Origin: Anaerotignum faecicola
Lineage (GTDB): Bacteria; Bacillota; Clostridia; Lachnospirales; Anaerotignaceae
Direction: 5' to 3'
Assembly: GCF_003865035.1 (NCBI RefSeq)
Contig: NZ_BHVZ01000001.1
Span: 124,001-188,000, forward strand
Length of the DNA: 64,000 nucleotides
A program made the translations under genes and the position numbers. This document shows, piece after piece, positions 37,389 to 55,190 of this stretch (within the stretch, counting starts at the first letter, position 1; every line of letters begins with the position of its first letter). The notes under the pieces were generated by a model. The model was given only the letters and a program-made list of their open reading frames with translations, was not told the origin of the DNA and did not search any database.

Positions 37389-38882
37389 TTATGCTCGATG
37401 GCCGCCCACTTGGTTATTCCGTTCCTTCATGGTTGCACCTTCCAAGAAATTTGTTCCTTTTAATACTGCGTTTTTTCCGTATTTCTTTTGAATCTGCAAA
37501 ATGGCTTTTTGCAGCTGCTTTTCTTTTTGGCGTGCATCTTCCTTTTTTCTCTGCTTTTCCGATTCTTCGGTATCCGCAAATAAATCCAACTGCTTCGGCT
37601 CCTTCTTCACTGCCTCCTGAGAAATCACATGACACGCCGCAATCGTTACCCTTCGCACAAGAAGCTCTTGATTCACAATGCAGTCATACAGCTGCAGCAC
37701 CGCCTCTGCTATTTCCTCGGAAGAACTGCTATGTCCCTCCAGATTCGCTGTGCCATGTGCGTGCTTCGGTATTTCCCTGCCGTAAGCATCCCGCACCACC
37801 TCTCCCGTATATCTTATCTCCGGGTTCTCCAGACTTTCCTTATCATATCCAATCGTCAGCACAAGCTGATTTGTGACAACCCCCTTATTTACCAAATCAA
37901 GCACAAGCCGATCCACCATTTCCCTCACAATGATTTTCGCTTTTTCTGCCGTATAGGGAGATTGCAGCACTTGTCCGGAGCTTATGCTGTTGCTCATCGG
38001 CTGATAGGACTTTACATCCGCGATCGCACACGGCTCCCAGCCCCACGCATGATCAATCAACAGCTCTGCATTGATGCCAAAAAGCTGATATAGCTTATCC
38101 TCTCCTCTTTTGCTGAGGGAATATCTTGCGATATCCCCCATGGTGTATAAGCCTGCGGCATGAAGCTTTTTCGTGTAGCCTCTGCCCACACGCCAAAAGT
38201 CCTGAATCGGCTCATGCGCCCACATTTCATAGCGGTATGACATTTCATCCAGCTCCGCAATCCGCATCCCCTTCTCATCTGCGGGCATTTTTTTTGCCAA
38301 AATATCCATAGCAATCTTCGCCAGATACAGATTTGTGCCAATGCCGACTGTGGCTGTGATTCCCGTTGTTTGAAACACCGCATTTACCACCCTTTCCGCC
38401 AGTGCGTGCGCCGAAAGCCGATAAAACGGAAGATATGCCGTTAAATCGACAAAGACCTCATCAATGCTATAAACATGAATATCCTCTGCCGAAAAATACT
38501 TTAGAAAAATACCGTGTATCTTCGCACTCACTTCCATGTACCGTCTCATTCTGGGCGGAGCAATGATATAATCCAGCTCCAAGGTTGGATCGTTCTGCAG
38601 CTCCCGCAAATCACAGGACTTATCCCAAAACGCCTTTGACGGAAGCCTCATCCGCCTTTCGTAGTTAATGTCACGCACTCTCTGCTTGACCTTAAACAGC
38701 CTCGGTCTGCCGGATATGCCAAAGGACTTTAAGGCAGGCGATACCGCAAGGCAAATCGTTTTATCCGTGCGTGCCGCATCAGCCACCACAAGATTGATTG
38801 CCATCGGATCAAACCCCCGGTCAATGCACTCGACAGAAGCATAGTAGCTTTTTAAATCACAGCATAAATACGTTCTTTCCAT
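37389..38882 (-). CDS. Y-family translesion DNA polymerase (UmuC/ImpB type)
   Basis: 497 residues. CDLKSYYASVEC holds the first catalytic Asp, and VYSIDEVFVDL the catalytic DE pair. Helix-hairpin-helix and little-finger regions follow. KQLDLFAD near 430 is a canonical beta-clamp binding motif. Length and the YolD partner place it in the UmuC-like plasmid/ICE group used for SOS mutagenesis. The ATG at 38882 is 7 nt after GGAGG. Confidence 0.92.
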   Translation of the reverse strand: MERTYLCCDLKSYYASVECIDRGFDPMAINLVVADAARTDKTICLAVSPALKSFGISGRPRLFKVKQRVRDINYERRMRLPSKAFWDKSCDLRELQNDPTLELDYIIAPPRMRRYMEVSAKIHGIFLKYFSAEDIHVYSIDEVFVDLTAYLPFYRLSAHALAERVVNAVFQTTGITATVGIGTNLYLAKIAMDILAKKMPADEKGMRIAELDEMSYRYEMWAHEPIQDFWRVGRGYTKKLHAAGLYTMGDIARYSLSKRGEDKLYQLFGINAELLIDHAWGWEPCAIADVKSYQPMSNSISSGQVLQSPYTAEKAKIIVREMVDRLVLDLVNKGVVTNQLVLTIGYDKESLENPEIRYTGEVVRDAYGREIPKHAHGTANLEGHSSSSEEIAEAVLQLYDCIVNQELLVRRVTIAACHVISQEAVKKEPKQLDLFADTEESEKQRKKEDARQKEKQLQKAILQIQKKYGKNAVLKGTNFLEGATMKERNNQVGGHRA

Positions 38883-38923
38883 ACACCCACCTCCAAGAGC
38901 AAACATATATTCTTTACAATAAC

Positions 38924-39069: not shown

Positions 39070-39386
39070 TTATTTTAGAATCTCCAACACAGCATGCTCC
39101 ACTCTATGTTCTTTTATTTTGTCGATGGTTGTACGAAGGTTATCTACTTCCAGCTCTATATTCACATCCCCATCCTTTGGCACTATGCCCAATTTTTGAA
39201 ATACAAAACCGATAAATGTTTCGCAATCCTCTGCGGTTATCGCCACTCCGGTCGCATCCTCAATGTCACTTAATCGCAAATTGCCTTTGATCTCCCACTT
39301 GCCGTCATGGTCGCTTCTATTGTCTCTCCCTCAAGCGATGTTGATTCAACATCATTGAGATTTCCGACAAGCTCTTCCAAAAGGTC
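39070..39386 (-). pseudogene. C-terminal remnant of a CorC/HlyC-type (CNNM) transporter-associated domain protein
   Basis: From 39279 to the stop the frame GDVNIELEVDNLRTTIDKIK ... HAVLEIL matches the CorC_HlyC domain. Upstream in that frame, GKWEIKGNLRLSDIEDATGV continues it. Further up, in the frame of the preceding remnant, DLLEELVGNLNDV looks like the end of its CBS region. So only the last ~100 residues remain, with a frameshift, fused to an old yellow enzyme fragment. No transport domain is left; not functional. Confidence 0.65.
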
Positions 39387-39995
39387 AAAATAACATTCTT
39401 TTAAAAATCTGATGTGATTCTCCAATCTCCCACCATATTCGTCTGTCCTATGATTATAATAAGGAGACAAAAACTGGTTCAATAAGTAAAAATGTGCTGC
39501 ATGTAATTCTATTGCATCAAAACCAGATTCCTTAACACGTTTAGCCGCCTGTCCATGAGCTTTCACCACAGAATAAATATCCTCCTGTGTCATAGATATA
39601 CCTTGTGTACCAGTAGTTTTTCCTGGAATATCAGAAGGAGCAAATATTCTTCAATTTTCTGTTTTATAAGTTGTTTTTTGTACCACCATATGCAATCTGC
39701 ATCATGATTTTGCGCCATAGCCATGCACCATCTGTGTCAAATGCTTGTACTCTTCTATAAAACTATCAGCATAGATTCCCAGCATTTTTTCATTTGCACA
39801 TTCTTCCTCTGTAGTTCTGGTCATTCCCGTACAAATGAATCTAACCTCATTTTTTGCCAAATTTTCATAGACTTCATATAAAGCGGAAGTCATATTTCCA
39901 TCTTCAGTCGCCTTTGCTTCCCATGTTGCACTTCTCATAAAACGATTTTTACAGTATAAAAATTTGATTTTACACGATGTAAAAGCAAGATCCAT
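39387..39995 (-). pseudogene. Broken old yellow enzyme (NADH:flavin oxidoreductase)
   Basis: N-terminal part (CKNRFMRSATWEAKATEDGN) and middle part (FDAIELHAAHFYLLNQFLSP, YNHRTDEYGG) are typical of the OYE/2,4-dienoyl-CoA reductase family. They are in different frames: single-base losses near 39705 and changes between 39600 and 39700 interrupt an otherwise readable MQIAYGGTK ... PSDIPGKTT stretch. The C-terminal half is missing and replaced by CorC sequence at about 39386. Confidence 0.75.
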
Positions 39996-40195
39996 ATTAG
40001 CCCCCCTGATTTTCATTCATTTATTCCCTTAAGGTCAATCCAAATTCTTGTTGTATCCTACCCTAACAATGGTGCCCCTTTTCTGATTTCTGCAGGTGTT
40101 TTACTTAATTTCATACTAAAGTCAATCTAATTTTCCTCTTTTTATTACACATCCACTTGTTCGTGAGGAGAAAGTACCTATATTTAGCCATAAAA

Positions 40196-40425: not shown

Positions 40426-41505
40426 TTAGCCTTCTCTGCACATTGCTTCAAATGCTTCTTTGTCAACACCTTCCAAGCCAAGGTTCTTTCTTGTTCTGCC
40501 TTCATCCATTTCAGGAATAATTGCACGAGCAACTGTGATCACAGCGCTGATGCAAGGAGTAGGTACACCTGCTACCTGACCCATTGTCTGCAGTGCAACT
40601 AGAGAATAGGGAATATCTTCCATTAGATAACGTGTACGCATTGTTTTCTGACCTTTGATACCTGTATAAGCAGAAATTGCATTTGTGATAACTTCATACA
40701 TATTGTTACCAGAGGTTTCATATGTATTTTTATACTCATCTACCAGTGTTCTCAGTTCCAAACCATACGCTTTGCCCAAAGCCATTCTTTCTGCATCCAG
40801 TGCTTCAACCAATGCACCCTGGCTAGGTGTAAAGTCCAGATAATACTGAAAATCTTCTTCATGCTCAATTTTTGCTGTGTACAGCAGTGTAGGTGCGGGA
40901 TGCATCATTGCATTCAGGTTATCTAGGCTAACACGCAGAATATCATCTCTGAAGTTAAACTGAGGCAGAATATCCGCAAATTTTTCAGCTACCAGATCGT
41001 TATATTTGGAAGGGTATGCTGCTGCAGAAAGGCTTGCCTTCTGACCGGAAACCTCAACTCTACCTACTTCTATTGCACGGCAAGCGAACAGCAGTGTGGA
41101 TGTGCCAGCAATGATAATATCTGCTGTGCAACCACATTCTTTCAGTGTATTCTTAAATTCAACAGGACCCAAAGAAGCATTAGGGTTCAGTACAACAATC
41201 TGACCATCCTTCAGATGAGGTGCCATTTTCTTTGCCATATCTTTATGGTAGATAGAGGGCAGTACAACCAGAATAATTTCGCACCCCTCCATAACCTTTC
41301 CAATATCTGTACTTGCTAATTCAATTTTACCAAAGCCTGTTACATCAGAATGACCTTCCAATACAACACCACCCAGCTTTGTTAATTTATCTACTGTATT
41401 CTGAACTACATCAAAGATTTTTACTGTTCTGCCATGCAGAGAAAGATACCCAGCAAAGGCCTGTCCGCCATTACCGGCACCAATAATTGCCATCGGTTTT
41501 CCCAT
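40426..41505 (-). CDS. Octopine/opine dehydrogenase-family oxidoreductase, copy 1
   Basis: 359 residues. NAD(P)-binding start MAIIGAGNGGQAFAGYLSLH (GxGxxG), second domain from ~185 with the conserved NAMMHPAPTLLYT, where the family's catalytic His lies. These enzymes join or split an amino acid and a 2-oxo acid through an N-linked (opine) bond with NAD(P)H. AAAGGAG seven bases before the ATG at 41505 fixes the start. Expression is from a promoter overlapped by the TTGTAGTACAA operator. Paralogues at 47040-48116 and the broken 44811-45879. The true substrate is unknown. Confidence 0.8.
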   Translation of the reverse strand: MGKPMAIIGAGNGGQAFAGYLSLHGRTVKIFDVVQNTVDKLTKLGGVVLEGHSDVTGFGKIELASTDIGKVMEGCEIILVVLPSIYHKDMAKKMAPHLKDGQIVVLNPNASLGPVEFKNTLKECGCTADIIIAGTSTLLFACRAIEVGRVEVSGQKASLSAAAYPSKYNDLVAEKFADILPQFNFRDDILRVSLDNLNAMMHPAPTLLYTAKIEHEEDFQYYLDFTPSQGALVEALDAERMALGKAYGLELRTLVDEYKNTYETSGNNMYEVITNAISAYTGIKGQKTMRTRYLMEDIPYSLVALQTMGQVAGVPTPCISAVITVARAIIPEMDEGRTRKNLGLEGVDKEAFEAMCREG

Positions 41506-41574
41506 GATGATACTCCTTTCCATTGTGTACCATTTTATTTTTTAAGTTGTAATTTTCAATGACGTCACTTGATG

Positions 41575-41608
41575 GTTTAATTGTACTACAACTAAACAGG
41601 TATTGCAA
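41575..41608 (-). promoter_or_regulatory. Promoter and GntR-type operator of dehydrogenase copy 1
   Basis: Minus strand -35 TTGCAA (41603-41608), 17 bp, -10 TACAAT (41580-41585). A near-perfect palindrome at 41575-41597 covers the spacer and -10: halves GTTTAATTGT and ACAACTAAAC separated by ACT. The TNGT-N3-ACNA core fits FadR-type GntR sites. Confidence 0.7.
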
Positions 41609-41827
41609 TAGGTTTTTTTGTTTTTTATTCCTTTTATTCAATTCGTTTATTTTTCATACTCAAATTTATGAAAAACAACCAAATTCTTCTCCTGTCTTTT
41701 ATCTGCCCTTTCCGTCAAAGCTCCTCAAATTTTTCAAAGCCCATTCATATCATGATTTCTCTTAGATTATTATATATCCCCCTCATTACCCCACAGCTTC
41801 CTCCTATATCCATGTACTTCACAAACA

Positions 41828-41877
41828 TTAAAAAGTGTACAAGCCCTGAAAAAATTCAGGGCTCGCACACTTTTTAA
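41828..41877. terminator. Bidirectional terminator after symporter 1
   Basis: AAAAAGTGT and AGCCCTGAA pair with TTCAGGGCT and ACACTTTTT. The remaining part of the gap (41609-41827) is AT-rich without a gene. Confidence 0.8.
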
Positions 41878-41948
41878 TGTTAGAAAATGAGGCACAAATT
41901 ATGGTACGTCACAAAAGTATTCATTTTATATAAAATCTCTTCTACCAA

Positions 41949-43352
41949 TTATTCTTCATTTTTTGTCGCTTTCCCTTTTGTCAGCGCACTCACTACCATC
42001 AATGCAACGAAAGATGCTGCAATACCCATAACTGCATAGTTAATTGTTGTTTTCAGAACCATTGCTACTGCACAACCAACGCAACCTGCAATCATACTTG
42101 CAATAAGACCCTGTGTAGTGATAAACTTTTTATTTCTATAAATATATCCCACATAAATCGGGCAAAGAAGTGTTGCTGCAGAGAACGCATAAGTTGCAAC
42201 CAACCATGTCAGTGTATCTGTGAATACCAAGCACATCAGAACTGCAACAACCATAGTTACCAGAGAGAGCGTTCTGGAAAGCTTCAGCATTTTATCAGAA
42301 GAAATATCAGGCTTAATAACAGCCAGAATATCTCTTGTGATATTTACTACTACAGACTGCGCACCACTGGAAACTGTAGACATCATAACTGCAAAAACCA
42401 ATGCTGCAAAAGCTGCCAGCAAAGGCAGAGGCAACTGAGACATGAACCAACCTGTTGCTGTATTCTGCGCCAGTTCTGTATTCATTGTACTGATGCTCAT
42501 GCCCATATATACTGCCCATACAAAGCTCAGGAATGCCAAAAATGCGGAAATCGCCAAAGAAGCAGGAATTTCTTTTTCTTCTTTAATCGCACAAACACGC
42601 TGGAAATACAGCTGGTTTGTTACGCCGCCGGGCATTACGGAGAATACCCAGAGCAGCACTGTGCCTGCACCTAATTTCTTGATGGAGCCGCTCATAGAAA
42701 TCATATCAGGATCAATATTATTCAGAATATTCTGCAGGCCGCCACCCATATTTGTTACATAAATAACAGAAACAATGCACATCAGAATCATGAAGCAAGC
42801 GAAAATAAAGTCTGTCCATGCTACTGTTTTCAGACCGGCAGGCATTACAAACAGCAAGCTTACAAATGTAAACACGATGCAAAGCAGATTGTAATTGACA
42901 CCGGTAATTGTGGAATAAATGCTCCCGAATGCTGTAATCTGAGAAGTAATCCAACCAAAGGGTACGAAAATTGTCATAATTGCAGCCAGAATACCTACAA
43001 ATTTACTATTATTGGAAAAATGTCTTAAAATTTCGGGTACTGTTGTAAAATTATTCTGACGCAACCATTTTGCCGGAATCATAACAAAGAAAAACGGTAA
43101 TGCCGTCAAGAAACCATAAATTAAGATTGCCACACCATTCAAATAAGCATTCCCCAGATGACCTACCAAAATACCGCCGCCCATAGCACTGGCAAACTGT
43201 GTACCAATAACAACATAAATGGGAAGGCTTCTATCCGCTACTGCCCAGTCATCCTCGGATACCGCAGAGCGTTTGCTGATAATATAGGTTGGAATAAGCG
43301 TTGCTAAGACAACTAATGTCGTTGCGAAAAAAATTGCCATTGTTTGAGTCAT
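41949..43352 (-). CDS. Sodium:solute symporter (SSS) family transporter, copy 1
   Basis: 467 residues with about 13 hydrophobic segments. Family patterns include IGTQFASAMGGGILVGHLGN, GWITSQITAFGSIY and the Na+-site region MMSTVSSGAQSV near 345. It imports organic solutes (acids, amino acids or vitamins in this family) with Na+. Strongly similar along its length to copy 2. AAGGAGGAGAAGGAT precedes the ATG. It carries its own promoter and operator and lies upstream of dehydrogenase copy 1, separated by a terminator. Confidence 0.88.
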   Translation of the reverse strand: MTQTMAIFFATTLVVLATLIPTYIISKRSAVSEDDWAVADRSLPIYVVIGTQFASAMGGGILVGHLGNAYLNGVAILIYGFLTALPFFFVMIPAKWLRQNNFTTVPEILRHFSNNSKFVGILAAIMTIFVPFGWITSQITAFGSIYSTITGVNYNLLCIVFTFVSLLFVMPAGLKTVAWTDFIFACFMILMCIVSVIYVTNMGGGLQNILNNIDPDMISMSGSIKKLGAGTVLLWVFSVMPGGVTNQLYFQRVCAIKEEKEIPASLAISAFLAFLSFVWAVYMGMSISTMNTELAQNTATGWFMSQLPLPLLAAFAALVFAVMMSTVSSGAQSVVVNITRDILAVIKPDISSDKMLKLSRTLSLVTMVVAVLMCLVFTDTLTWLVATYAFSAATLLCPIYVGYIYRNKKFITTQGLIASMIAGCVGCAVAMVLKTTINYAVMGIAASFVALMVVSALTKGKATKNEE

Positions 43353-43364
43353 ATCCTTCTCCTC

Positions 43365-43400
43365 CTTAATGATAATTGCTTTCTTAATGATAATTGCTTT
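43365..43400 (-). repeat. 18 bp tandem duplication in symporter 1 leader
   Basis: CTTAATGATAATTGCTTT occurs twice back to back just upstream of the AGGAGG of symporter 1. A recent slippage duplication; it lengthens the 5' leader. Confidence 0.8.
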
Positions 43401-43532
43401 GCAGACAACTTATATTAAAAGATAAACAACTTTTTTCATATGCTCTTAATTATAAATTGTCTTTTTCTGAAATGAAATAAAAACTTTGGTCTCTATTTCC
43501 CCCTTCTCTTAATTAGAACTTTTATAAAACTT

Positions 43533-43590
43533 GTTTAATTGTAGTACTACTGGACAATTAGATTATACTTGAGTAGTTTCTAAAATGCAA
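43533..43590 (-). promoter_or_regulatory. Promoter and operator of symporter 1
   Basis: Minus strand -35 TTGCAT (43585-43590), 17 bp, -10 TATAAT (43562-43567). At the start point lies the operator-like GTTTAATTGTAGTACTAC (43533-43550 on the plus strand), sharing the left half of the dehydrogenase 1 palindrome. Confidence 0.65.
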
Positions 43591-43728
43591 CTCCATTTTT
43601 GCAATATTCCTATAAAATCCAGATTTTCATGGAATTACTACAAAAACTTTTTTGAAAAACCTCGTTTTTTGTCCTTAGATTTATGAAAAATTCATCAAAA
43701 AATAAAGAAAGGCATTACCCTTTTTTCA

Positions 43729-43773
43729 TTGCATTTCTATAACTTTTATTGTATGATTGTAGTGCTGCTGGAT
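43729..43773 (+). promoter_or_regulatory. Promoter and operator of EamA gene
   Basis: -35 TTGCAT (43729-43734), 17 bp, -10 TATGAT (43752-43757). ATTGTAGTGCTGCTGGA overlaps the -10 and start point and resembles the symporter 1 operator (ATTGTAGTACTACTGGA). Confidence 0.65.
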
Positions 43774-43842
43774 TTCATATTTAAAAATATGCTTTATAAG
43801 AGAAATACTTATAAACAAAACCTGACAAAGGAGGTTATTTTT

Positions 43843-44703
43843 ATGGATAAAAAAAAGGGGGTTCTCTGTATCATTGCTTCTGTGCTGCTATTTGCATTTA
43901 TGCAGCTTTTCATCAGCATGACCAGCCCTGCATCCAGTGTATTTTCTCAAATTTTCTTCAGAAACCTGCTTGGAATGATTTTATGCGCTTATTTTATTCG
44001 AAGAGACCATTTACCCTATTTCGGTGATTTGAAATCGCAACCTTATCTTCTTGGGCGTTCCTTTTTTGGGTTTCTGGGATTGCTTTGCTTGTTCTACGCT
44101 ACACGCCATGCTTCTCTTGCGGATGTAACAATCATAACCCATACAGCCCCTTTTTTCACAACCTTGGTGGCTGTCTTATTTCTGCATGAAAAGCTGTCTC
44201 CCGTCCAAATCCCGGCATTATTGATTATCTTCCTTGGTGGATGTTTAGTAACAAATCCACGGTTTGATTCATCCCTTATTCCCTTGGGCATAGCTTTCCT
44301 CGCTGCGATTTCCAATGGTATTTGCTATCCCCTCCTGCGGTATTCCAGGGAACGAGAACACGCCATGACAGTAATTATGCATTTCTCCACTTTTTGTGTT
44401 GTTGCGTGCATCCCCTTCCTTGCTAGAAATTTTTCTATCCCGCATGGCATGGATATTGTCTACCTGGCATTGATTGCACTGACCGGCGCACTTGGTCAAA
44501 TCTTTTTGACCTACGCCTACCGTCTATGCCCCGCCTCCGAAATTTCTCTTTATGAGCAATTTTCTATTGTAGCTTCCATTATATTAGGGTATTTCTTCCT
44601 GAATCAAATCCCTTCTATACGCGCTATTGCAGGCGGCACTCTCATCTTAGGTACTTCTATATTCGTTTATTTTTATAACCTCAAAAGAACAGCACAATCT
44701 TGA
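43843..44703 (+). CDS. EamA/DMT-family transporter
   Basis: 286 residues with ten hydrophobic helices in two EamA halves (VLCIIASVLLFAFMQLF start; DVTIITHTAPFFTTLVAVLF end of half one). DMT members often export amino acids or metabolites. AAAGGAGG precedes the ATG at 43843; the longer frame from 43729 covers the promoter. Its operator places it in the same regulon as the symporters and dehydrogenases, so it may export a product or excess substrate. Confidence 0.85.
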   Translation: MDKKKGVLCIIASVLLFAFMQLFISMTSPASSVFSQIFFRNLLGMILCAYFIRRDHLPYFGDLKSQPYLLGRSFFGFLGLLCLFYATRHASLADVTIITHTAPFFTTLVAVLFLHEKLSPVQIPALLIIFLGGCLVTNPRFDSSLIPLGIAFLAAISNGICYPLLRYSREREHAMTVIMHFSTFCVVACIPFLARNFSIPHGMDIVYLALIALTGALGQIFLTYAYRLCPASEISLYEQFSIVASIILGYFFLNQIPSIRAIAGGTLILGTSIFVYFYNLKRTAQS

Positions 44704-44704
44704 T

Positions 44705-44741
44705 AACAAAAAAATCTCCTATAAAAGGAGATTTTTTTGTA
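44705..44741. terminator. Bidirectional terminator
   Basis: AAAAAAATCTCCT-ATAA-AAGGAGATTTTTTT between the convergent EamA gene and dehydrogenase copy 2. Confidence 0.85.
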
Positions 44742-44810
44742 TTATCAAGATATAGGATTACCAAATACAGTTCGTGGGGAGGGGGATGTATTGGCTCCTT
44801 TCTGTATTTC

Positions 44811-45879
44811 TTAACCCAAGCAGAGCTTTAAGAATTCCTGTTTGCTCATACCGGCAATTCCAAGATTTTTTGCATTTCTGCCTTCTGCAATATCATCCAC
44901 AACTGCTCTTGCAAGGCATACAACGGAATCAATAATAGGTGTCTTTATACCTGCCACCTGTGCCATTGCACGGAATGCTTCCAATGCGTACGGAATATCC
45001 TCCTGAAAATATCTTGTATTCATAGACTTTTGTCCTCCAATATCTCCATAAGCATCGCAGTTTGTAATAACCTCATAAGCTGTCTTGCCTTCTGTTGGAT
45101 ACATTCCTTTGAATTCATCTACGAAGCTTCTAACTTCGATACCAAACGCATTGGCAATCGCAACTCTTTCCTCATCCATTTTATCCATCAATCTGCCCTG
45201 TGTAGGTGTCAAATCAAGATAGTATCTGAAATCAAGCCCTCTTTCAATTACATTTGTATAAAGCAGTGTAGGGCCAGCGGATGTGCAATCGCATTTAAGT
45301 TATCCAATGTAACACGAATAACATCAAGGAGAAGTCAATCTCTGGTATAATATCCGCAAACAGCTCTGCAAACTCTTTATTAGCACTGGCAGGCAATGCT
45401 GCTGCAGAGAAATTTTGTCTTCTGTCCGGAAACCTTCACTTTGCCCACCTCAACCATTCTGCAGCAAACAACAATGTTGAAGTGCAGGCCAGCTTTACAT
45501 TTGCTTTACAACCGTTTCATCAAATGCCTTCTTTGTTTCCAAAATGCCCAAACCAGCTGCCGGGTTCAGTACAACATACTGACCATCCTGCAAATGAGGT
45601 GCTATTTTTTCTGCTGTACTCTTGTGATAAATAGAAGGCAATGTTACCAAAACAATTTCTGCATCCTGCAATGCAACCTTCATATCTGTTGTTGCCAAAG
45701 CAATTTTGCCAAAGCCAGTTACATCAGAATGACCTTCCAATATAATACCACCCAAATATTTAGCTTATTTACGGTATCTTCTGCCACATCAAAATTTTTA
45801 CTGTGTGCCCTTTTAAGGATAAATATGCCGCAAAAGCTTGTCCACCGTTACCAGCACCGATAATTGTAATTTTTTTCAT
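44811..45879 (-). pseudogene. Opine dehydrogenase-family copy 2, frameshifted
   Basis: Reads MKKITIIGAGNGGQAFAAYL from the ATG at 45879, then loses frame. Pieces GGIILEGHSDVTGFGKIALA (45495-45755) and the C-terminal domain (44811-45212, ending GMSKQEFLKLCLG) are in other frames. Losses of single bases in T- and A-runs near 45810 and 45760 and more between 45215 and 45495 account for it. Otherwise collinear with copies 1 and 3. It still has a good promoter and operator upstream, so decay looks recent, or the breaks are read errors. Confidence 0.8.
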
Positions 45880-45927
45880 AAAAATCAGAACCTTTCTGTA
45901 TTCTTCATTTCAAGCTCAGTTGTGATT

Positions 45928-45986
45928 GTCTATTTGTACTACAATTAAACTTATTTATATTATATATATGTACGGTAATAAGTCAA
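45928..45986 (-). promoter_or_regulatory. Promoter and operator of dehydrogenase copy 2
   Basis: Minus strand -35 TTGACT (45981-45986), 16 bp, -10 TATAAT (45959-45964). Operator-like palindrome at 45928-45950, halves GTCTATTTGT and ACAATTAAAC around ACT. Confidence 0.65.
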
Positions 45987-46033
45987 GAACATTTTTAATC
46001 AACTTATTTTTCTGTCAATCTTTTCACATTCGC

Positions 46034-46061
46034 TTGCCTTTCCCCCTCAAACCTGTATAAT
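46034..46061 (+). promoter_or_regulatory. Promoter of broken GntR gene
   Basis: TTGCCT, 16 bp, TATAAT; 44 bp ahead of the ATG at 46105, divergent from dehydrogenase copy 2. Confidence 0.55.
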
Positions 46062-46104
46062 AAAAGAGACTTGACATAAAAACTAGAACGAAAAGGACGA
46101 AAAT

Positions 46105-46873
46105 ATGATACCAAAAATCAAAAAAGTAAACCTAAGCACACAACTTGTCGATACCATGACCACTCTCATTGAAGATGGTAGTTGGAAACTGGGGGATAAC
46201 TTCCCAATGAAGTTGAATTAGCAGCCTCTTTTGAAGTAAGCAGAAATGTTATGAGAGAGTCCATGAAAATTTTGGAAAATTTGGCATTTTAGAATCTAAA
46301 ACAGGTATTGGCACGTTTATTTCTCAGACAGCTCTGAGTGCAATCCATAATATGCGTTTTTTCGATGAACTAAAAAATAATACAACTGTAGAAATGATTA
46401 TGGAAACACGTATTATTATCGAGCCTGAACTGGCATACTATGCAACATTGCGTGCAACAGAAGATGACATTTCTTTCTTAAAAGATATTTTTATGGAAAA
46501 TACTTCCGGAAATCGTGAAAAATTCTTCAAAGAGCGTCATGATTTTAATTTTCATCTCTTCCTTGCAAAATGCAGCAAAAATACAATTTTAGAAAATTTG
46601 CTTTTTTCCATGCTGGATCAATTAAAAGGAAGCGATTATTTAAAATTTAACCAACACGTTGAATTAGAGGCTTCTACCAATTCCTATGAAAATCACAAAG
46701 AAATTGCAAATGCAATCTTTCATAAGGATGCCCTTCTGGCAAAAGAGTTGATGTCTCAGCATTTAGCTGTTAGAATGGATACAATTAATTTTCCTACAAC
46801 AAAGATCTTGCAACATCTAAAAAAATTAGAAAAACACGTGAAAAAAAATAAATCTATTTTTTTCATGGCATAA
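46105..46873 (+). pseudogene. FadR-type GntR regulator, two frameshifts
   Basis: The start MIPKIKKVNLSTQLVDTMTT leads into the wHTH; single-base losses near 46205 (in TTCCCAATG) and near 46280 (GGAAAATTTGG) break the frame. Restored, it reads EVELAASFEVSRNVMRESMK, then GILESKTGIGTF and an intact FCD ligand-binding domain (46352-46873). Clear paralogue of the intact regulator at 49818-50528. Placed divergent to the broken dehydrogenase, as the intact pair is. Confidence 0.82.
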
Positions 46874-46972
46874 AATTTAAAATCTATCTGAATTTGTTGA
46901 TAGATTATTAGATATTGGTTAATATCCTAATCATCTATCAATATATTTTGATTTATCTTTAGCTTTTACTTA

Positions 46973-47018
46973 AAAACTCCTTCCGAATCATAATCCATTC
47001 AGAAGGAGTTTTCTTAAT
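46973..47018. terminator. Bidirectional terminator
   Basis: AAAACTCCTTC and GAAGGAGTTTT arms with an inner GAAT/ATTC, between the GntR remnant and dehydrogenase copy 3. Confidence 0.8.
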
Positions 47019-47039
47019 TACAGTATAAATTTATGTATC

Positions 47040-48116
47040 TTATGCTCGGCACATCTTAATAAATTCTTCCTTAGATACGCCTTCCAGACCAAGATTCTTA
47101 ACAGTACGCCCCTCAATCATCTGTGGAACAAGCGTTCTGCCAACCGTAATCATCGCATCAATACAAGGCGTCGGAACACCTGCAATTTTCCCCAAGGATT
47201 GCAATGCAACCAGAGAGCATGGAACATCTTCCATCAAATATCTTGTTTCCAGAGATGTCTGCCCTTTGATACCACGCAAATCTTCGTTCTGAGAAAGGAT
47301 TTCATACATATTGCTTCCATGTGTGCGATACATAACCTTGTATTCTTCTACCAGAGGCTTTATCTTATCCAGACCATACGCTTTTGCCAGAGCCATACGT
47401 TCTTTATCTAGCGCATCTACATATCTGCCCTGAGCAGGTGTAATATCCAGATAATATTCAAAAGGTGTCTTAGATTCAATACGACCTGTGTTCAAAATTG
47501 TAGGTGCAGGATGCACAAAAGCGTTAATGTTATCCAGACTTGCACGAATAACATCATCTACAACTTCAAATTCAGGGATCAAATCTTTAAACATTTCTTC
47601 CAAAACATTGTTTCTGCTAGAAGGGTATGCAGACATAATCAAGTGCTTCTTCTGACCTGCAACTACTACATGACCAATTTCTACTGCACGGCATGCAAAC
47701 AGCAATGTAGAAGAACAACCGATTGTAACATCTGCTGTTACATTACAATCATCCAAAACTTTCCGGAATTCTACGGGCCCCATCGAAGCATGAGGGTTCA
47801 AGATAATCACCTGACCATCCTTCAGATAGGGTGCCATCTGGCGTGCCATATCTGCATGATACAAAGAAGGCAATACAATTAAAATTAACTTTGCTCCTTC
47901 AATTACTTCCTGCATACTTGTTGTTGCTTTTTCAATTTTACCAAAGCCAGTCAGTTTGCTGTTGCCTTCCATCAAAACACCGCCAACTTCATTCAGTTTC
48001 TCTACTGTTGCAGGAATCACATCAAAAATTTTGATTCTCTCTCCCATCAAAGAAAGGTATCCTGCAAATGCTTGTCCACCATTTCCCGCACCAACGATTG
48101 CAATATGATTTTTCAT
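47040..48116 (-). CDS. Octopine/opine dehydrogenase-family oxidoreductase, copy 3
   Basis: 358 residues, collinear with copy 1: AIVGAGNGGQAFAGYLSLMG dinucleotide-binding start, NAFVHPAPTILNTGRIES around the presumed catalytic His, and the same C-terminal helix ending EEFIKMCRA. AAGGAGG lies before the ATG. It starts 81 bp after the symporter 2 stop on the same strand with no terminator between, so the two are likely one operon: uptake plus oxidation. Confidence 0.8.
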   Translation of the reverse strand: MKNHIAIVGAGNGGQAFAGYLSLMGERIKIFDVIPATVEKLNEVGGVLMEGNSKLTGFGKIEKATTSMQEVIEGAKLILIVLPSLYHADMARQMAPYLKDGQVIILNPHASMGPVEFRKVLDDCNVTADVTIGCSSTLLFACRAVEIGHVVVAGQKKHLIMSAYPSSRNNVLEEMFKDLIPEFEVVDDVIRASLDNINAFVHPAPTILNTGRIESKTPFEYYLDITPAQGRYVDALDKERMALAKAYGLDKIKPLVEEYKVMYRTHGSNMYEILSQNEDLRGIKGQTSLETRYLMEDVPCSLVALQSLGKIAGVPTPCIDAMITVGRTLVPQMIEGRTVKNLGLEGVSKEEFIKMCRA

Positions 48117-48197
48117 GATAAAAGCCTCCTTATTTATATTTATATATTTACTACATTTACTTCAAAAAATTTAAACCAACTTTTCTTTTTCCCTTTT

Positions 48198-49595
48198 TTA
48201 AATTACATCCTTCTTCTTTGTTGTAACTGCACAAGCAATCATCATACCCACAAAGGAGAACAGAATGCCAACTGCTGCATAGTTAATTGCAGTGTTCATC
48301 ACCATGCCAATAACCGTACCAACCGCACCACACAGCATCGCTGCAATAATGCCGCTATTTGTGAGCTTATTCTTCTTATACAGTGCATACCCCACAAAAA
48401 TTGGACAGAACAGTGTCGCTGCAGAAAAAGCATTCATTGCTACAAGCCATGCTAATGTATCTGTGAATACCAAGCACATAACAACGGAAAATACCATGAT
48501 TGCAAGGCATGTTATTCTGGAAAATCTCAGAGATTGCTTATCAGACATATTAGGTTTCAAAACGGGCATAATATCATATGTAACATTTACTGCCATAGAC
48601 TGTACAGCAGAGCTTACTGTAGACATCATTGCCGCAAATAAAACCGCCGCGAAGCAAGCCAACAGAGGAATCGGGAGTTGATTCATAAACCAGCCAGTTA
48701 CCGAATCCTTTTCCAAAGTAGGGTTAATAGAATTGAGTGTAATCCCCATATAAATCGCCCAACAGAAGCCAAGCAAAGATACTACTGCAGAAATGATTAA
48801 ACTTCTTGTTACTTTCTTTTCTTCTTTAATTGCACAAATTCTCTGATAGTACAACTGGTTTGTCATGCCCCCTGGCAAAACAGAGAAGAACCAAAGAAAG
48901 ACTGTACTCAATCCTAATTTTTTCAACGAACCGGTGATTGTAAGCATATCCGGATCCACGGTTGCTTTCACAGTATTCACACCGCCAGCCATGTTTGTTC
49001 CATATCCCAAGGAAATAATCAGGATAATTCCCATGAAACAAGCAAAGAAGAAGTCTGTCCATGCCACTGTTTTCAACCCGGCAGGCATAATAAAGAACAA
49101 GCTAATCAAAGAGAAAATAATACACAATGCCGTGTAATCCAGTCCTGTCAAAGCAGAATAGATGCTACCGAATGCTGTAATCTGGGAAGTAATCCATCCC
49201 AAAGGAAACAACATCGTCATAGCAGATGATAATACCGTGATTGTCTTATTTCGATTAGAATATTTTTTTAAAATATCCGGAATTGTTGCAAATTCATTCT
49301 TTCGCAGCCATTTTGCAATTAAAGCTAAAAATACGAAGGGCAACACCATGAAAATTCCATAAAAAATAACACTAATACCATTCTGATAAGTATTCCCAAG
49401 ATGCCCTACCATAATTCCGCCACCAAATACACTGGCAAACTGCGTACCAACAACAACAAAAAGAGGAAGTTCTCTGTTTGCAATCGCCCAATCTTCTCCG
49501 GACGTTTGCTTTCTGCGGTTCAAAACAAATGTTGGTATTAGCGTTGCCAAAATTAGCACTGCTGTCGCTAAAATAATTGATAACGTTTTATACAT
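48198..49595 (-). CDS. Sodium:solute symporter (SSS) family transporter, copy 2
   Basis: 465 residues, about 13 membrane segments, close paralogue of copy 1 (VGTQFASVFGGGIMVGHLGN, GWITSQITAFGSIYSALTGL, MMSTVSSAVQSMAVN). It heads an operon with dehydrogenase copy 3 and diverges from the intact GntR gene, with an operator in the promoter. Confidence 0.88.
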   Translation of the reverse strand: MYKTLSIILATAVLILATLIPTFVLNRRKQTSGEDWAIANRELPLFVVVGTQFASVFGGGIMVGHLGNTYQNGISVIFYGIFMVLPFVFLALIAKWLRKNEFATIPDILKKYSNRNKTITVLSSAMTMLFPLGWITSQITAFGSIYSALTGLDYTALCIIFSLISLFFIMPAGLKTVAWTDFFFACFMGIILIISLGYGTNMAGGVNTVKATVDPDMLTITGSLKKLGLSTVFLWFFSVLPGGMTNQLYYQRICAIKEEKKVTRSLIISAVVSLLGFCWAIYMGITLNSINPTLEKDSVTGWFMNQLPIPLLACFAAVLFAAMMSTVSSAVQSMAVNVTYDIMPVLKPNMSDKQSLRFSRITCLAIMVFSVVMCLVFTDTLAWLVAMNAFSAATLFCPIFVGYALYKKNKLTNSGIIAAMLCGAVGTVIGMVMNTAINYAAVGILFSFVGMMIACAVTTKKKDVI

Positions 49596-49660
49596 TCTCT
49601 ACGCCTCCTTTTAATTATTATTTAGGTTTAGAATCTACAGTACTGTTCATCATCCCTGCA

Positions 49661-49694
49661 AGCTAACTGTACTACAGCTGTGTTGTAGTGTCAA
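49661..49694 (-). promoter_or_regulatory. Promoter and operator of symporter 2 operon
   Basis: Minus strand -35 TTGACA (49689-49694), 17 bp, -10 TACAGT (49666-49671). CTGTACTACAG and a following TGTTGTAG lie within it. It is 124 bp or more from the divergent gntR start. Confidence 0.7.
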
Positions 49695-49817
49695 TATTAC
49701 TTTCATCTTTTCACAATAATTTGTAGAAATATCCGAATCTTTGGTGTATAATTTAGTTAAATCTCTGTTTTCTTCCTATAATTCTTATTCATTATATCTA
49801 AATAAAGGAGTGTACAA

Positions 49818-50528
49818 ATGTCTATAAAAGTACAAAAGCAAAATCTATGCGAACAGCTTACCTCTGCAATCATCCACTATATTCAAGAAGGAACATGGCT
49901 TTTAGGACAAAAATTACCCGGTGAAATAGAGCTGGCAAATTCTTTTGAAGTCAGCCGTAATATTATGCGTGAAGCCATTAAAATTCTTGAAAACTTCGGA
50001 ATCCTAGACGCTAAAAATGGCATTGGTACCTTTGTTTCTCCTAATGCTCTAGAAAACATTCAAAATATGAACTTCTTTTATAGTCTAAAAGATAATACTT
50101 CTGTAGAAATGATTCTTGAAATGCGTCTTATGGTTGAGCCGGATGCTGCTTATTTCGCTGCTTTACGCATCCAAGAAGACGGCATTGCTGCCCTAAAAAA
50201 GCTTTCCGAAAATCAGCTTGATAAATATGAAGCCTTTCCGGATTATCAAGATGATTTCGATTTGCACCTAGCTATCGCTCATTACAGCGGTAATGTGCTT
50301 TGCGAAAACTTCTGTCATTCTCTTTTAAAGCAATTGCAAAATAGTCTCTACTCTGAGTTTAATAAATATTCTTCCGAAAAAACCAGAGTAGATAATATTT
50401 CTACGCATACAGCTATTGTAAACGCTATTATTGAGCATAAGGCTGAACTTGCCCAGCATTTAATGAAAGACCACTTGATTAACCGACTAAAGCTAATTAA
50501 TCCCGATTTTGAAAATTCAGATTTTTAG
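49818..50528 (+). CDS. FadR-type GntR transcriptional regulator
   Basis: 236 residues. N-terminal wHTH (LPGEIELANSFEVSRNIMRE, GILDAKNGIGTFVSP) and C-terminal all-helical FCD domain with likely metal/ligand residues (DDFDLHLAIAHYSGN, then STHTAIVNAI). It probably binds the TNGT-N3-ACNA palindromes of the five local promoters and is released by the substrate or product. AAAGGAG precedes the ATG. Confidence 0.88.
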   Translation: MSIKVQKQNLCEQLTSAIIHYIQEGTWLLGQKLPGEIELANSFEVSRNIMREAIKILENFGILDAKNGIGTFVSPNALENIQNMNFFYSLKDNTSVEMILEMRLMVEPDAAYFAALRIQEDGIAALKKLSENQLDKYEAFPDYQDDFDLHLAIAHYSGNVLCENFCHSLLKQLQNSLYSEFNKYSSEKTRVDNISTHTAIVNAIIEHKAELAQHLMKDHLINRLKLINPDFENSDF

Positions 50529-50702
50529 AAAAACGAACCGCCTTCTTAACAATAAATATAAAAGGTGAATCGTTAAAAAGATTTAATATCCAAGTGATAT
50601 AGCTGCAAAACTGTAGCTGCATAGAGTATTCCCCACGAAGCGCGAACTGCACCCCATTTGTTAGACAGTATGATATACTATTTAGCAAGTGGGGTGATTT
50701 TT

Positions 50703-51053
50703 ATGCCAAAAGGAGTACCAAACAAACGATATACTCCAGAATTTAAGAAACTGGTGGTAGAAACAATGCTGGAGGAAAAACTGAGCTACAGTGAAGCGGC
50801 AAGACAATTTGAAATAAATGATTACGGAATCATTCAACGCTGGGAGCGAATTTATCTCGAAGAAGGTTCAGAGGGGCTGGCTATCGAGCGTCGTGGACGC
50901 AAAAGCACCGGACGGCCAATGAAACTACAAAAAGAGGTAGAGGAGGATTTGATTGCAGAGGTGCAACGATTGCGTGCAGAAAACGCATACCTAAAAAACT
51001 TGCAAGCCTTGGTTTTGGAAAACGAGCGACAGCATCACAGAAAACACAGGTGA
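50703..51053 (+). CDS. IS3-family transposase OrfA
   Basis: 116 residues. HTH (YTPEFKKLVVETMLEEKLSY) and a leucine-zipper-like helix at the end. An in-frame A-AAA-AAC slippery heptamer at 50993-50999 lies before the stop, and OrfB is open in the -1 frame from there, so a fused OrfAB transposase can be made by -1 frameshifting, as in other IS150-group elements. Confidence 0.88.
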   Translation: MPKGVPNKRYTPEFKKLVVETMLEEKLSYSEAARQFEINDYGIIQRWERIYLEEGSEGLAIERRGRKSTGRPMKLQKEVEEDLIAEVQRLRAENAYLKNLQALVLENERQHHRKHR

Positions 51054-51892
51054 TTCAGAAACTAAGGCAAGAATTTTCACTGGCAATCCTGCTGGATGTC
51101 GCTCAACTGCCTCGTGCAACCTTTTACTATCACCTAAAACAACTGAAGAAAGCAGATAAATATCATTCTGTGAAAGAAGAAATCACTGCTATTTTCCATG
51201 AGAATAAAGGAAGATACGGTTATCGACGTATTACTGCAGAACTTCGAAATAGGAATATTTATTTAGATCATAAAACTGTTCAGCGTCTTATGCAGAAGTT
51301 GGGCTTGGTTTGTCGTGTCAGGATGAAGAAGTATCGCTCTTATAAAGGAGAAGTGGGCAAAATCGCACCAAATCTGTTAAATCGGAACTTCCATGCCGAA
51401 AAACCGAATCAGAAATGGGTCACGGATGTGACAGAGTTCAGCCTGTTTGGTGAGAAACTGTATCTGTCCCCAATTCTCGATTTGCACAGCAGTGACCTTG
51501 TCAGCTATACCATATCGGATCGTCCTGTGCTGCGCATGGTGACAACTATGCTGAACGAGGCATTTGCAAAAATTCCGGACGGAACAAACCTCATTCTCCA
51601 TTCTGATCAGGGATGGCAGTATCAGCACAGGCAGTATCAACGGATGCTCCGGGAGAAAGGCATCCGGCAGAGCATGAGCCGAAAAGGGAATTGTCTGGAC
51701 AATGCTGTGATAGAAAATTTCTTTGGGCTGCTCAAGAGCGAACTGCTGTATTTGCAAGAATTTCAGTCCCTGGAGCACTTCAAGCAGGAACTCGTTGCAT
51801 ATCTGGATTACTACAACAACCGCAGGATCAAGGCAAAACTCAAGGGCTTGCCGACTGCAATACACAGACAACAAGCCCTTTCGGCTGCTTGA
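51050..51892 (+). CDS. IS3-family transposase OrfB (DDE)
   Basis: 280 residues. An N-terminal HTH_21-type region (KGRYGYRRITAELRNR) is followed by the rve integrase core with D in WVTDVTEFSLFG, D in LHSDQGWQY and E in AVIENFFGLLKSE. A GTG at 51050 overlaps the OrfA stop; the main product is probably the frameshift fusion. Confidence 0.9.
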   Translation: MIQKLRQEFSLAILLDVAQLPRATFYYHLKQLKKADKYHSVKEEITAIFHENKGRYGYRRITAELRNRNIYLDHKTVQRLMQKLGLVCRVRMKKYRSYKGEVGKIAPNLLNRNFHAEKPNQKWVTDVTEFSLFGEKLYLSPILDLHSSDLVSYTISDRPVLRMVTTMLNEAFAKIPDGTNLILHSDQGWQYQHRQYQRMLREKGIRQSMSRKGNCLDNAVIENFFGLLKSELLYLQEFQSLEHFKQELVAYLDYYNNRRIKAKLKGLPTAIHRQQALSAA

Positions 51893-52035
51893 GTTGTTTT
51901 ACTTAAAATATTCGTCTAACCTTTTAGGGTCAATTCATAGAGGCTTTCAGCTTGCATTTTATTTACTTTTATAGTTCTCTACGCAACCTATCTGTTACCA
52001 ACAAACTCAGTTGAGTTACATATATTCATGACACT

Positions 52036-52122
52036 GGGAAAAATCCGAATATATTGAATTTTACTCCTAATGCAGTATATATCATATTTCTGCTAATCAC
52101 AATACCCTGTTTCACGCCTTAT
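52036..52122 (+). repeat. 87 bp repeat, copy 1 (upstream of DUF4143 ATPase A)
   Basis: Nearly identical to 53554-53640 over 87 bp (a few mismatches, mostly at the 3' end, both ending CCTTAT). Copy 2 is the 3' flank of the minus-strand ATPase, so copy 1 may mark where the tail of another such gene used to be. Confidence 0.85.
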
Positions 52123-52246
52123 CAACTCTCCCTCACCGAAAGTCAAGACGCTTATAATACGTATATCCTCTTGATGAAACGGATATATTATGATAAAATG
52201 CGATTAACCATAGATTTTCATAAAAATCGAAAGTTGGAGGTGCGTT

Positions 52247-53470
52247 ATGACATATATTACACGAGAGCTGGAGCGTAAGTTCCTAAAGCTCAATGATTTT
52301 TTCAAGGTTATTCTTGTGACCGGTGCAAGACAGGTCGGCAAAACTACGATGCTCAAGCATTTGGCAACCGATGACAGAACCTATGTCACGATGGATAACG
52401 CTATGGCAAGAGAACTTGCCCAGACCGACCCCGTATTATTTTTCCAAACCTATAAGCCGCCTATCCTCATTGACGAAGTACAGAAAGCTCCGGAGCTGTT
52501 TGAGCAAATCAAGATAATTTGTGATGAGAGCGACGAAAAGGGCCTTATCTGGCTGACGGGTTCACAGCAGTATAAGATGATGGAGCGAGTGCGTGAAACA
52601 CTTGCAGGAAGAATCGGAATACTGGAACTGTACAGCTTATCCGCAAGAGAAAAAGCAGGAATAGTGTTTGACACCGATTTGGACTTCTCTCTCGCAACCT
52701 TGCAGGCACGACAAAGAAAACTCCCGAAAAACGATGTGATACACGTCTTTAACCACATTTGGGAGGGTGGTATGCCCCAGGTGCAGGGCGTTGACGATGA
52801 GCTTCGTCAAGAGTATTTCAATTCCTACATCGACACCTATCTGATGCGAGATGTGGCAGAAGCTGGCGGCATTACCGATACGGTTCGCTTCCGCAAGTTC
52901 CTTGTAGGCTGTGCAGCACTTGTTTCAGAGCAGGTCAACTATTCGACACTTGCAGAGTCCGCCGATATTGCTCCAAGTACCGCAAAGGAATGGCTGAAAG
53001 TTCTTGTCGGACTTCACATTGTCTATCTCCTTGCTCCGTATTCCAACAATGAACTGAAACGGCTTAGTAAGACCCCAAAGCTATATTTCTGCGACACCGG
53101 ACTTTGTGCTTATCTTTCGATGTGGCTGACAGCGGACACCCTCCGCAACGGCGCTGCAAGCGGTCATTACTATGAGAATTATGTGGTAATGGAGCTTGTG
53201 AAAAACTACGCTTATGCAAAGTCAAAGGTTAATATCACTTACTTCCGTGATTCCAACGCAAAAGAGATTGATGTGTTCGTTGAGGAAAACAATGTGATTC
53301 ATCCGTTGGAAATCAAAAAGAGTGCCGCACCCGACCGCCGTGATGTCAAGAAATACAGCATAATTGATAAGGCTTCCCTAAACCGTGGATACGGCGGCAT
53401 TATCTGTATGTGTGAGGAACCGATGCCAATTGATGCGGATAATTGTTTTATTCCCAGCAATCTAATCTAA
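52247..53470 (+). CDS. AAA ATPase with DUF4143 domain (A)
   Basis: 407 residues. Walker A GARQVGKTT near 27, Walker B ILIDEVQKAP near 75, sensor region WLTGSQQYKMM; a DUF4143 C-terminal domain begins about 200 and ends with a PD-(D/E)xK-like pattern (KEIDVFVEE ... LEIKKS). This family (archaeal ATPase-like) is abundant in gut bacteria with no firm function. TTGGAGGTGCGTT precedes the ATG. Different subgroup from the one at 53645. Confidence 0.85.
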   Translation: MTYITRELERKFLKLNDFFKVILVTGARQVGKTTMLKHLATDDRTYVTMDNAMARELAQTDPVLFFQTYKPPILIDEVQKAPELFEQIKIICDESDEKGLIWLTGSQQYKMMERVRETLAGRIGILELYSLSAREKAGIVFDTDLDFSLATLQARQRKLPKNDVIHVFNHIWEGGMPQVQGVDDELRQEYFNSYIDTYLMRDVAEAGGITDTVRFRKFLVGCAALVSEQVNYSTLAESADIAPSTAKEWLKVLVGLHIVYLLAPYSNNELKRLSKTPKLYFCDTGLCAYLSMWLTADTLRNGAASGHYYENYVVMELVKNYAYAKSKVNITYFRDSNAKEIDVFVEENNVIHPLEIKKSAAPDRRDVKKYSIIDKASLNRGYGGIICMCEEPMPIDADNCFIPSNLI

Positions 53471-53528
53471 ACAATTTCAAACAGTTTGTTAATCATTAGA
53501 AATGTGCACCGCAAGGCACACTTAAAAA

Positions 53529-53557
53529 TCCCGATGCCATTGTCAATGACATCGGGA
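53529..53557 (-). terminator. Terminator after DUF4143 ATPase B
   Basis: Minus strand: CCCGATGTCATT-GAC-AATGGCATCGGG followed by ATTTTTAAG. Confidence 0.75.
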
Positions 53558-53640
53558 AAAATCTGAATATATTAAATTTTACTCCTAATGCAGTATATAT
53601 CATATTTCTGCTAATCACAATACCCTATTACGCACCTTAT
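53554..53640 (+). repeat. 87 bp repeat, copy 2 (3' flank of DUF4143 ATPase B)
   Basis: See 52036-52122; same orientation. Its left end overlaps the terminator of ATPase B and its right end is 4 bp from that gene's stop. Confidence 0.85.
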
Positions 53641-53644
53641 AGAG

Positions 53645-55183: not shown

Positions 55184-55190
55184 ATGGTTT

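Follow-up and report, generated by a model that had tools for sequence, protein, structure and literature searches.

What might a bacterium do with several opine-dehydrogenase-like enzymes encoded beside sodium/solute symporters, FadR-type regulators and repeated copies of one palindrome? Here, we describe such a locus at positions 40426-50528 of a 64-kb stretch of contig NZ_BHVZ01000001.1 (the window, meaning that whole stretch), with gene families assigned by Pfam profile matches, and we read it as probably a catabolic regulon for importing N-(1-carboxyalkyl) amino acids, either opines or chemically similar compounds, and splitting them with NAD-dependent enzymes. The enzyme family, the gene set, the operator and its conservation, its co-occurrence with relatives of one regulator (GntR1) and the broken genes can be read from the DNA itself. 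The minus strand of the locus carries the dehydrogenase DH1, the symporter SSS1, a broken dehydrogenase DH2, the dehydrogenase DH3 and the symporter SSS2, and the plus strand carries an EamA-family transporter, the broken GntR1 and an intact regulator, GntR2.

The two intact dehydrogenases, DH1 (40426-41505, minus strand, 359 amino acids; PF02317 E = 1.6e-40, PF01210 E = 7e-08) and DH3 (47040-48116, minus strand, 358 amino acids; PF02317 E = 1.6e-41, PF01210 E = 1e-08), are CENDH-type opine dehydrogenases, each with an NAD-binding N-terminal domain and the PF02317 helical domain. The closest solved structure to DH3 is 1bg6, the N-(1-D-carboxylethyl)-L-norvaline dehydrogenase (CENDH) of Arthrobacter sp. 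1C (E = 6.5e-75), followed by octopine dehydrogenase (E = 1.2e-11). Fold comparison of the AlphaFold model of DH3 (pLDDT 94.1) likewise ranked 1bg6 first (TM 0.93/0.95, rmsd 1.6), with octopine dehydrogenase at TM 0.77-0.82 (second-ranked match 3iqd, TM 0.82) and the metallophore-type opine dehydrogenases for staphylopine, yersinopine and pseudopaline at TM 0.65-0.74, and membership of the opine dehydrogenase family, as proposed in a preliminary description of the locus, is thus borne out by both sequence and fold. In an alignment of 34 rows (DH3, DH1 and 32 of the 120 homologs listed by a search that counted 695), K156, H202, R292 and D297 are invariant in all 34 rows and N198 is nearly so; we take H202 and D297 to be the catalytic histidine and aspartate. 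DH1 and DH3 would act NAD-dependently on N-(1-carboxyalkyl) amino acids.

SSS2 (48198-49595, minus strand; PF00474, 98.0 bits) lies 81 bases upstream of DH3 in the same direction, and both it and SSS1 (41949-43352, minus strand; 85.7 bits) score above the PF00474 cut-off of 22.8 bits. The EamA-family transporter (43843-44703, plus strand; PF00892 E = 1.1e-29) and GntR2 (49818-50528, plus strand) are intact; GntR2 has the N-terminal GntR (PF00392) and C-terminal FCD (PF07729) domains that define the FadR subfamily, and GntR1 is present as broken pieces only. Relatives of DH2 (44811-45879, minus strand) match in at least three reading frames, as do those of GntR1 (46105-46873, plus strand; FCD piece 46352-46873), for which a fourth short match lies at its end. 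An intact GntR1 relative, P0121 (249 amino acids), is 90% identical over 93% of the searched piece, among 16 proteins found. Pfam therefore agrees with the gene families first proposed (two intact Octopine_DH enzymes, two SSF symporters, one EamA, one intact GntR+FCD regulator), and DH2 is indeed broken; of the two FadR-type genes counted earlier, GntR2 is intact, but the break in GntR1 had been overlooked. Because the paralogs are only 60% (DH1 and DH3), 56% (SSS1 and SSS2) and 42% (C-terminal pieces of GntR1 and GntR2) identical, the locus appears to consist of two diverged modules and no recent duplication: module A with DH1, SSS1, EamA, broken DH2 and broken GntR1, and module B with SSS2-DH3 and GntR2.

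The 9-mer TGTASTACA is found three times in the window (41582, 45935 and 49668), at the promoters of DH1, DH2 and SSS2, compared to a mean of 0.12 and a maximum of 1 in 200 simulated windows. A palindromic matrix was built from eight sites in four relative loci, using no window sequence: L144 (= L032, isolate UC5.1-1D10) 8106, 11838 and 12833; L140 (= L037) 14435 and 15499; L141 (= L035) 9905 and 13809; and L142 (= L038) 7827. The sites were picked by their place before cluster genes and by their flanks, from a listing of the form TNGTNNNACNA in the window and 18 relative loci. The top three matrix scores in the 64 kb are 41581 (33.8 bits), the operator of DH1 (41575-41597), covering its -10 box; 45934 (30.3 bits), the operator of DH2 (45928-45950), between broken DH2 and broken GntR1; and 43539 (28.6 bits), the operator of SSS1 (43533-43555), just behind its -10 box. 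The next window scores are 9.2 and 9.1 bits, and the maximum over 40 simulated windows is 19.9. These three sites also fit TNGTNNNACNA, the operator form of the FadR subfamily, and those at 49667 and 43757 do not. The site of EamA (43751-43773, scored at 43757) is fifth in the window with 9.1 bits, where 1.3 sites of at least 8 bits are expected per 64 kb. The site of SSS2 (49661-49683, scored at 49667; core CTGTACTACAG) covers the -10 box and reaches just 1.5 bits, yet is a perfect 11-base core palindrome and lies 11 bases from the -35 box, the same distance as at DH1; it is unlikely to be there by chance, given how rarely the core 9-mer recurs in simulated windows. A loose 11-mer search allowing two mismatches found 30 sites versus 15.9 expected, a modest enrichment, with 30 reached in 2 of 100 shuffles. 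The palindrome thus appears to be a conserved operator, a putative binding site with three strong copies. Of the five equivalent sites that had been proposed to share a FadR-type operator, these three stand, at 28.6-33.8 bits versus the simulated maximum; the SSS2 site shares core and geometry only, and the EamA site is weak.

Promoter-like pairs accompany four of the sites, all on the minus strand: TTGCAA-17-TACAAT at DH1 (41580-41608; promoter scan score 9.0), TTGCAT-17-TATAAT at SSS1 (43562-43590; found by promoter geometry), TTGACT-16-TATAAT at DH2 (45959-45986; 11 of 12 matches) and TTGACA-17-TACAGT at SSS2 (49666-49694; 10 of 12 matches). Significance of the boxes by themselves was rejected, as a consensus scan alone found 46, not clearly above the 36.2 +/- 6.0 of shuffles. 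The promoters described earlier are instead supported by a box-operator spacing that recurs in relatives. In one geometry the operator lies over the -10 box, with the -35 box at -17 and the -10 box at +6 from the core start, at DH1, SSS2, the dehydrogenase DHb of L144, the alanine dehydrogenase of L141 and L140 15499 (minus strand); at the L144 EamA gene the operator also lies over the -10 box, with a 16-base spacer. In the other, seen at SSS1, at DH2 and at the L144, L141 and L142 symporters, the core closely follows the -10 box. Both geometries suit a repressor, because the operators cover or directly follow the -10 box, and control is presumably by repression.

Relative loci were collected by an alignment-based contig scan (222 relatives confirmed, 80 kept, giving 79 loci; 80 with L145). 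A reverse matrix from the three strong window sites, run over these 80 loci (five read from re-fetched versions), scored highest in L037 (33.6 bits), L038 (31.2), L032 (30.5) and L035 (29.4), with L051 next at 16.9, while the maxima of 400 shuffled loci averaged 5.3 and reached 19.8. The same four are the loci whose regulator scores 177-199 bits against the window regulators; all other GntR hits score at most 110 bits (comparison without L145). Conservation in orthologous loci, on which the earlier operator proposal was to stand or fall, is therefore seen in four distant genomes but not in loci without a close GntR1 relative. The exact core TTGTASTACAA occurs 3, 1, 2 and 4 times in genomes G800, G802, G803 and G804, and 2, 1, 1 and 1 of these copies belong to the dehydrogenase cluster. 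The clusters of G143, G801 and G192 have no close GntR1, and there none of the exact cores (0 of 4) falls within the cluster. Of the nine core sites outside clusters, seven fall within mechanical open frames, and TTTAA/TTAAA flanks on both sides are seen at none of the nine. A search for the 19-base operator that allowed up to 3 mismatches, and that misses some known cluster sites, gave a single hit in each of G800, G802 and G803, every time within the dehydrogenase cluster, and 0 for the control; for this reason the regulon looks self-contained in these three genomes, in line with the earlier claim, whereas in G804 the pattern does not stand out from its control (see below).

The preliminary description had named GntR2 (49818-50528) as the obvious regulator of all five sites; the operator accompanies GntR1 relatives instead. 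The operator-adjacent regulators in L144, L140, L141 and L142 are nearer to GntR1 than to GntR2: in the FCD domain, the GntR1 piece matches the L144 regulator at 84 of 150 positions and GntR2 at 54 of 147. The regulator that travels with the operator appears to be of GntR1 type, frameshifted in the window. In the winged helix, GntR2 matches the L144 regulator at 37 of 51 positions, where the L140 and L142 regulators match it at a similar 35 and 38, and because its DNA-binding domain is alike and its sensor domain divergent, GntR2 probably binds a similar core with another effector; its cross-control of module A sites is possible. The FCD positions H152, H199 and H221 are kept in all 7 rows counted and D148 in 6 of 7 (L145 has G), a pattern which we take to mark metal-binding, carboxylate-sensing FCD domains.

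Neighbours were counted over 81 loci, made up of the window and its 80 relatives; at two of them, L035 and L047, an antisense open reading frame hides that of the dehydrogenase. A symporter of the window's family is found in 10 of the 81 (9 of the 80 relatives), EamA in 4 (the window, L032, L033 and L037), a GntR of the window's cluster in 9, at varying distance, and OCD-family genes in 3 relative loci. In L141 the operator precedes an alanine dehydrogenase gene (TIGR00518, 515 bits, above cut-off), and in L143 an OCD-family protein is encoded between the symporter and the dehydrogenase, with the archaeal alanine dehydrogenase as its best NCBIfam match, scoring below cut-off. L051 appears to have the same design with another transporter: its site of 16.9 bits, below the shuffled maximum, lies between a GntR gene and the TRAP transporter preceding the dehydrogenase. 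The row at L051:5967-11071 comprises the GntR gene, the weak operator-like site, the TRAP transporter (DctQ, DctM, DctP) and the opine dehydrogenase. A perfect operator palindrome is also found at L140:15493-15515, behind EamA and between convergent genes, with a minus-strand promoter-like pair.

Ten relative loci carry, near the dehydrogenase, an enolase-superfamily gene of one sequence cluster, directly adjacent and on the same strand in 8 and one gene away in L033 and (by eye) L047. These proteins match N-acylamino acid racemase/dipeptide epimerase structures (2p88, E = 6.5e-65 for L033 and 4e-61 for L045). With residues placed by alignment to 2p88, D194, E220, D245 and K269 are kept in 10 of 10 and K165 in 9 of 10 (M in L045); presumably D194, E220 and D245 are metal ligands and the lysine on each side of the active site makes this a two-lysine racemase. 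The partner is thus racemase/epimerase-like and suggests a new enzyme activity. None was found in the window, and we did not adopt an enolase gene as part of the window's own system, as no relative was found in G800 or G143; G804 has two relatives (36% and 26%) elsewhere in its genome, and G802 and G803 have weak pieces only. In a maximum-likelihood tree, 12 rows form one clade (support 100/99) with 8 enolase-linked members, set apart from a second clade of 25 rows (100/99). The second clade includes the window enzymes and, despite its enolase linkage, L033, whose dehydrogenase from an Anaerotignum metagenome-assembled genome is 84% identical to DH1; L145 is in neither clade. Because the L140 paralogs group with different L141 enzymes (L140_DHa with one, L140_DHb with the other and with L142), the dehydrogenase types appear to predate the genomes of L140, L141 and L142.

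In 50 of the 81 loci, all within L050 to L110 and of a far dehydrogenase clade, an approximately 550-amino-acid protein is encoded directly before or after the dehydrogenase, 0-168 bases away on the same strand. It has a B12-binding N-terminus and no other Pfam match, with at least 6740 homologs among 7999 scored and Met_asp_mut_E on one of the 120 listed, and may be a mutase-like partner of the opine-dehydrogenase-like enzyme. A D-Ala-D-Ala-ligase-like protein is found in 17 loci (e.g. L050, L053-L055, L057 and L060-L063), and in 13 of them its gene lies immediately next to that of the dehydrogenase, in the same orientation and usually alongside the B12 protein pair.

We propose that the sodium/solute symporter imports an opine-like compound, that the CENDH-type dehydrogenase oxidises its secondary amine with NAD+, and that the imine and water would then yield an amino acid and a 2-oxo acid, probably pyruvate; the link to pyruvate is suggested by the operator before the L141 alanine dehydrogenase. 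EamA may export a product. FadR-type dimers would act as repressors by binding TTGTASTACAA, flanked by TTTAA/TTAAA, over the -10 box or directly behind it; a carboxylate bound by the FCD domain, which may be the opine, would lift the repression. As GntR1 is broken in the window, module A would be either derepressed or taken over by GntR2.

The same enzymes could instead run in reverse, joining pyruvate to an imported amino acid, re-oxidising NADH and exporting the opine through EamA; opine synthesis of this fermentative kind runs in oxygen-starved invertebrates. The reversible enzyme family, which includes octopine dehydrogenase, the EamA gene in the clusters of the window, L032, L033 and L037, and the anaerobic hosts would all fit, but a symporter with a dedicated repressor is typical of catabolism and it is not obvious what synthesis would need the enolase-type neighbours for. 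The nearest enzyme that has been characterised also comes from an opine-degrading isolate (PMC4575208, cited here and below from excerpts), and the growth of Arthrobacter 1C on an opine with an NAD+ enzyme is the precedent for which we favour the catabolic direction and hold synthesis to be quite unlikely. Rather unlikely, too, is a regulon of the kind described whose dehydrogenases act on other N-substituted or imino compounds. The identity to CENDH is just about 36%, the paralogs differ by 40%, and the dehydrogenase family seems to have more than one role, given the strict pairing of its far clade with the B12-binding protein; against this, the CENDH active-site residues and fold are kept. 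Biosynthesis of a staphylopine-like, opine-type metallophore is extremely improbable: the staphylopine, yersinopine and pseudopaline dehydrogenases share the fold, but CENDH is far closer and is the closest relative, no staphylopine-type family is among the Pfam matches of the locus proteins, and no metallophore-like neighbour was noticed in the locus. It is very improbable as well that the palindromes arose by chance or were inherited together with neighbouring DNA, instead of being operators, since the matrices agree reciprocally between window and relatives, the promoter geometry is fixed and the sites co-occur with GntR1 relatives, even though the EamA site alone could be chance and, across whole genomes, the bare core does not outnumber its control.

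For the catabolic regulon, uptake and oxidation of an opine-like compound, as first proposed, is favoured by the enzyme family, the symporters and the operator. Several points weigh against it. Its substrate and direction, as well as transport, effector and repression, are what we infer, the active-site roles are assumed, and EamA proteins are commonly exporters. Strong operators are found in just 4 of the 80 relative loci, the rest having a LysR or another GntR regulator, or none that was recognised; per genome, the core is found 1-4 times and its reversed control 0-5 times, so that the bare core is not enriched, and in G804 the 19-base pattern occurs 7 times versus 6 for its control. In the window, the EamA site is borderline, the SSS2 site is without conserved flanks, and a second promoter pair nearer to DH1 scores higher (9.5 vs 9.0); at L140 14435 no promoter pair fits either geometry. 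The CENDH reaction is also described as reversible (PMC4575208).

Close dehydrogenases occur in 2 of the 58 genomes in the L033 genome's family and, at a threshold of E 1e-60, in 5 of 6 in that of G143; a search with DH1 at E 1e-20 found them in 49 of 391 genomes of a class sample. Several relatives are from rumen or gut samples and others from elsewhere; the window organism is presumably of gut origin. A single-sequence contig scan found no relative among 32 stretches, and 0 of 87 candidate stretches in viral contigs were dehydrogenase relatives. We rejected kinship of the window organism through genome G001: the first 36 kb of the window hold genes of an integrative-conjugative element, and the locus DNA was found in none of four records tried, G001 included. 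The dehydrogenase was not found in G001, one of 60 genomes had a distant match only (E = 3.8e-5), and SSS2 was found in 0 of 394 genomes of the order of G001, probably not the host's order, at E = 1e-60. Around the locus, two pieces of a broken NADH:flavin oxidoreductase (39270-40016; PF00724) adjoin DH1, a DinB-like gene (37389-38906) adjoins the window locus and the L033 cluster on opposite sides, and an IS3-like transposase pair (50658-51892; HTH_Tnp_1 and rve domains) lies directly downstream of GntR2. Positions 1-36400 carry conjugative-element genes (coupling protein, TraG-like ATPase, topoisomerase, ArdA/ArdC-domain protein) beside the locus, with a phage-type integrase at 35094-36398. 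Because of a SpoIVB peptidase gene at 63421-63990, the host is probably a spore former. Window positions 52000-64000 are matched at E 0.001 or better in 46 of the 58 genomes in the L033 genome's family, with the best match at 82% over 1.35 kb in an ATPase gene and 71-74% in SpoIVB, which makes an Anaerotignaceae-like host likely.

Our searches of the open-access literature found no description of such a locus, which fits the earlier statement that it is undescribed. Each component family has been described before, as has the operator type, but these searches turned up no account of their combination, of its conservation or of the enolase partner. Dedicated, regulated opine systems in some Clostridia of animal guts and other anoxic places are suggested, where an N-carboxyalkyl amino acid supplied by the food, the host or other microbes may regularly serve as a substrate, and the operator is a handle for finding the regulon and its inducer. 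More tentatively, intestinal and rumen anaerobes may possess an undescribed opine-scavenging pathway in two regulatory flavours, FadR-type and enolase-type, bridged by DH1, whose 84% identical Anaerotignum relative sits in an enolase-type cluster. If so, the FadR-type flavour would combine as many as three dehydrogenases, differing in specificity, with the operator, a symporter and EamA. In the enolase-type flavour, an "opine epimerase" of the enolase superfamily would be encoded next to the dehydrogenase, together with LysR at some loci, and would channel the stereoisomers to the NAD enzyme. If alanine dehydrogenase belongs to the same regulon, the net conversion of opine and ammonium to two amino acids would be redox-neutral.

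Among known systems, CENDH of Arthrobacter sp. 1C (1bg6) is alike in full-length homology, fold and active-site residues; this soil isolate used N-(carboxyethyl)-phenylalanine for growth and possessed an NAD+ enzyme, and in the cited excerpts it is the subject of the one molecular study of opine catabolism by non-tumour bacteria and the sole basis of NAD-linked opine catabolism outside Agrobacterium (PMC4575208). The window differs in having two intact paralogs and one broken one beside symporters and FadR-type regulators in a Clostridia-type genome. The N-acylamino acid racemases/dipeptide epimerases (2p88, 3jva) are matched by dehydrogenase neighbours in the ten relative loci, where the genetic partner is instead an opine dehydrogenase. 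The operator type is already known, because DgoR, a FadR-type repressor of the E. coli dgo operon, has the same core in its IR1, TTGTAGTACAA, and its repeats overlap the dgo promoter; DgoR shares the GntR/FadR family and differs in its flanks, its genes and its effector, D-galactonate (PMC12288454, also from excerpts), and use of this operator at an opine-dehydrogenase locus is new to us. Octopine and nopaline catabolism in Agrobacterium (occ, nox/oox) likewise combines opine import with oxidation, and an opine operon there has an ornithine cyclodeaminase gene (PMC4575208), comparable to the OCD-family genes in three relative loci, but in Agrobacterium import runs through ABC permeases and oxidation through flavin-type oxidases/dehydrogenases, where the window has symporters and NAD enzymes.

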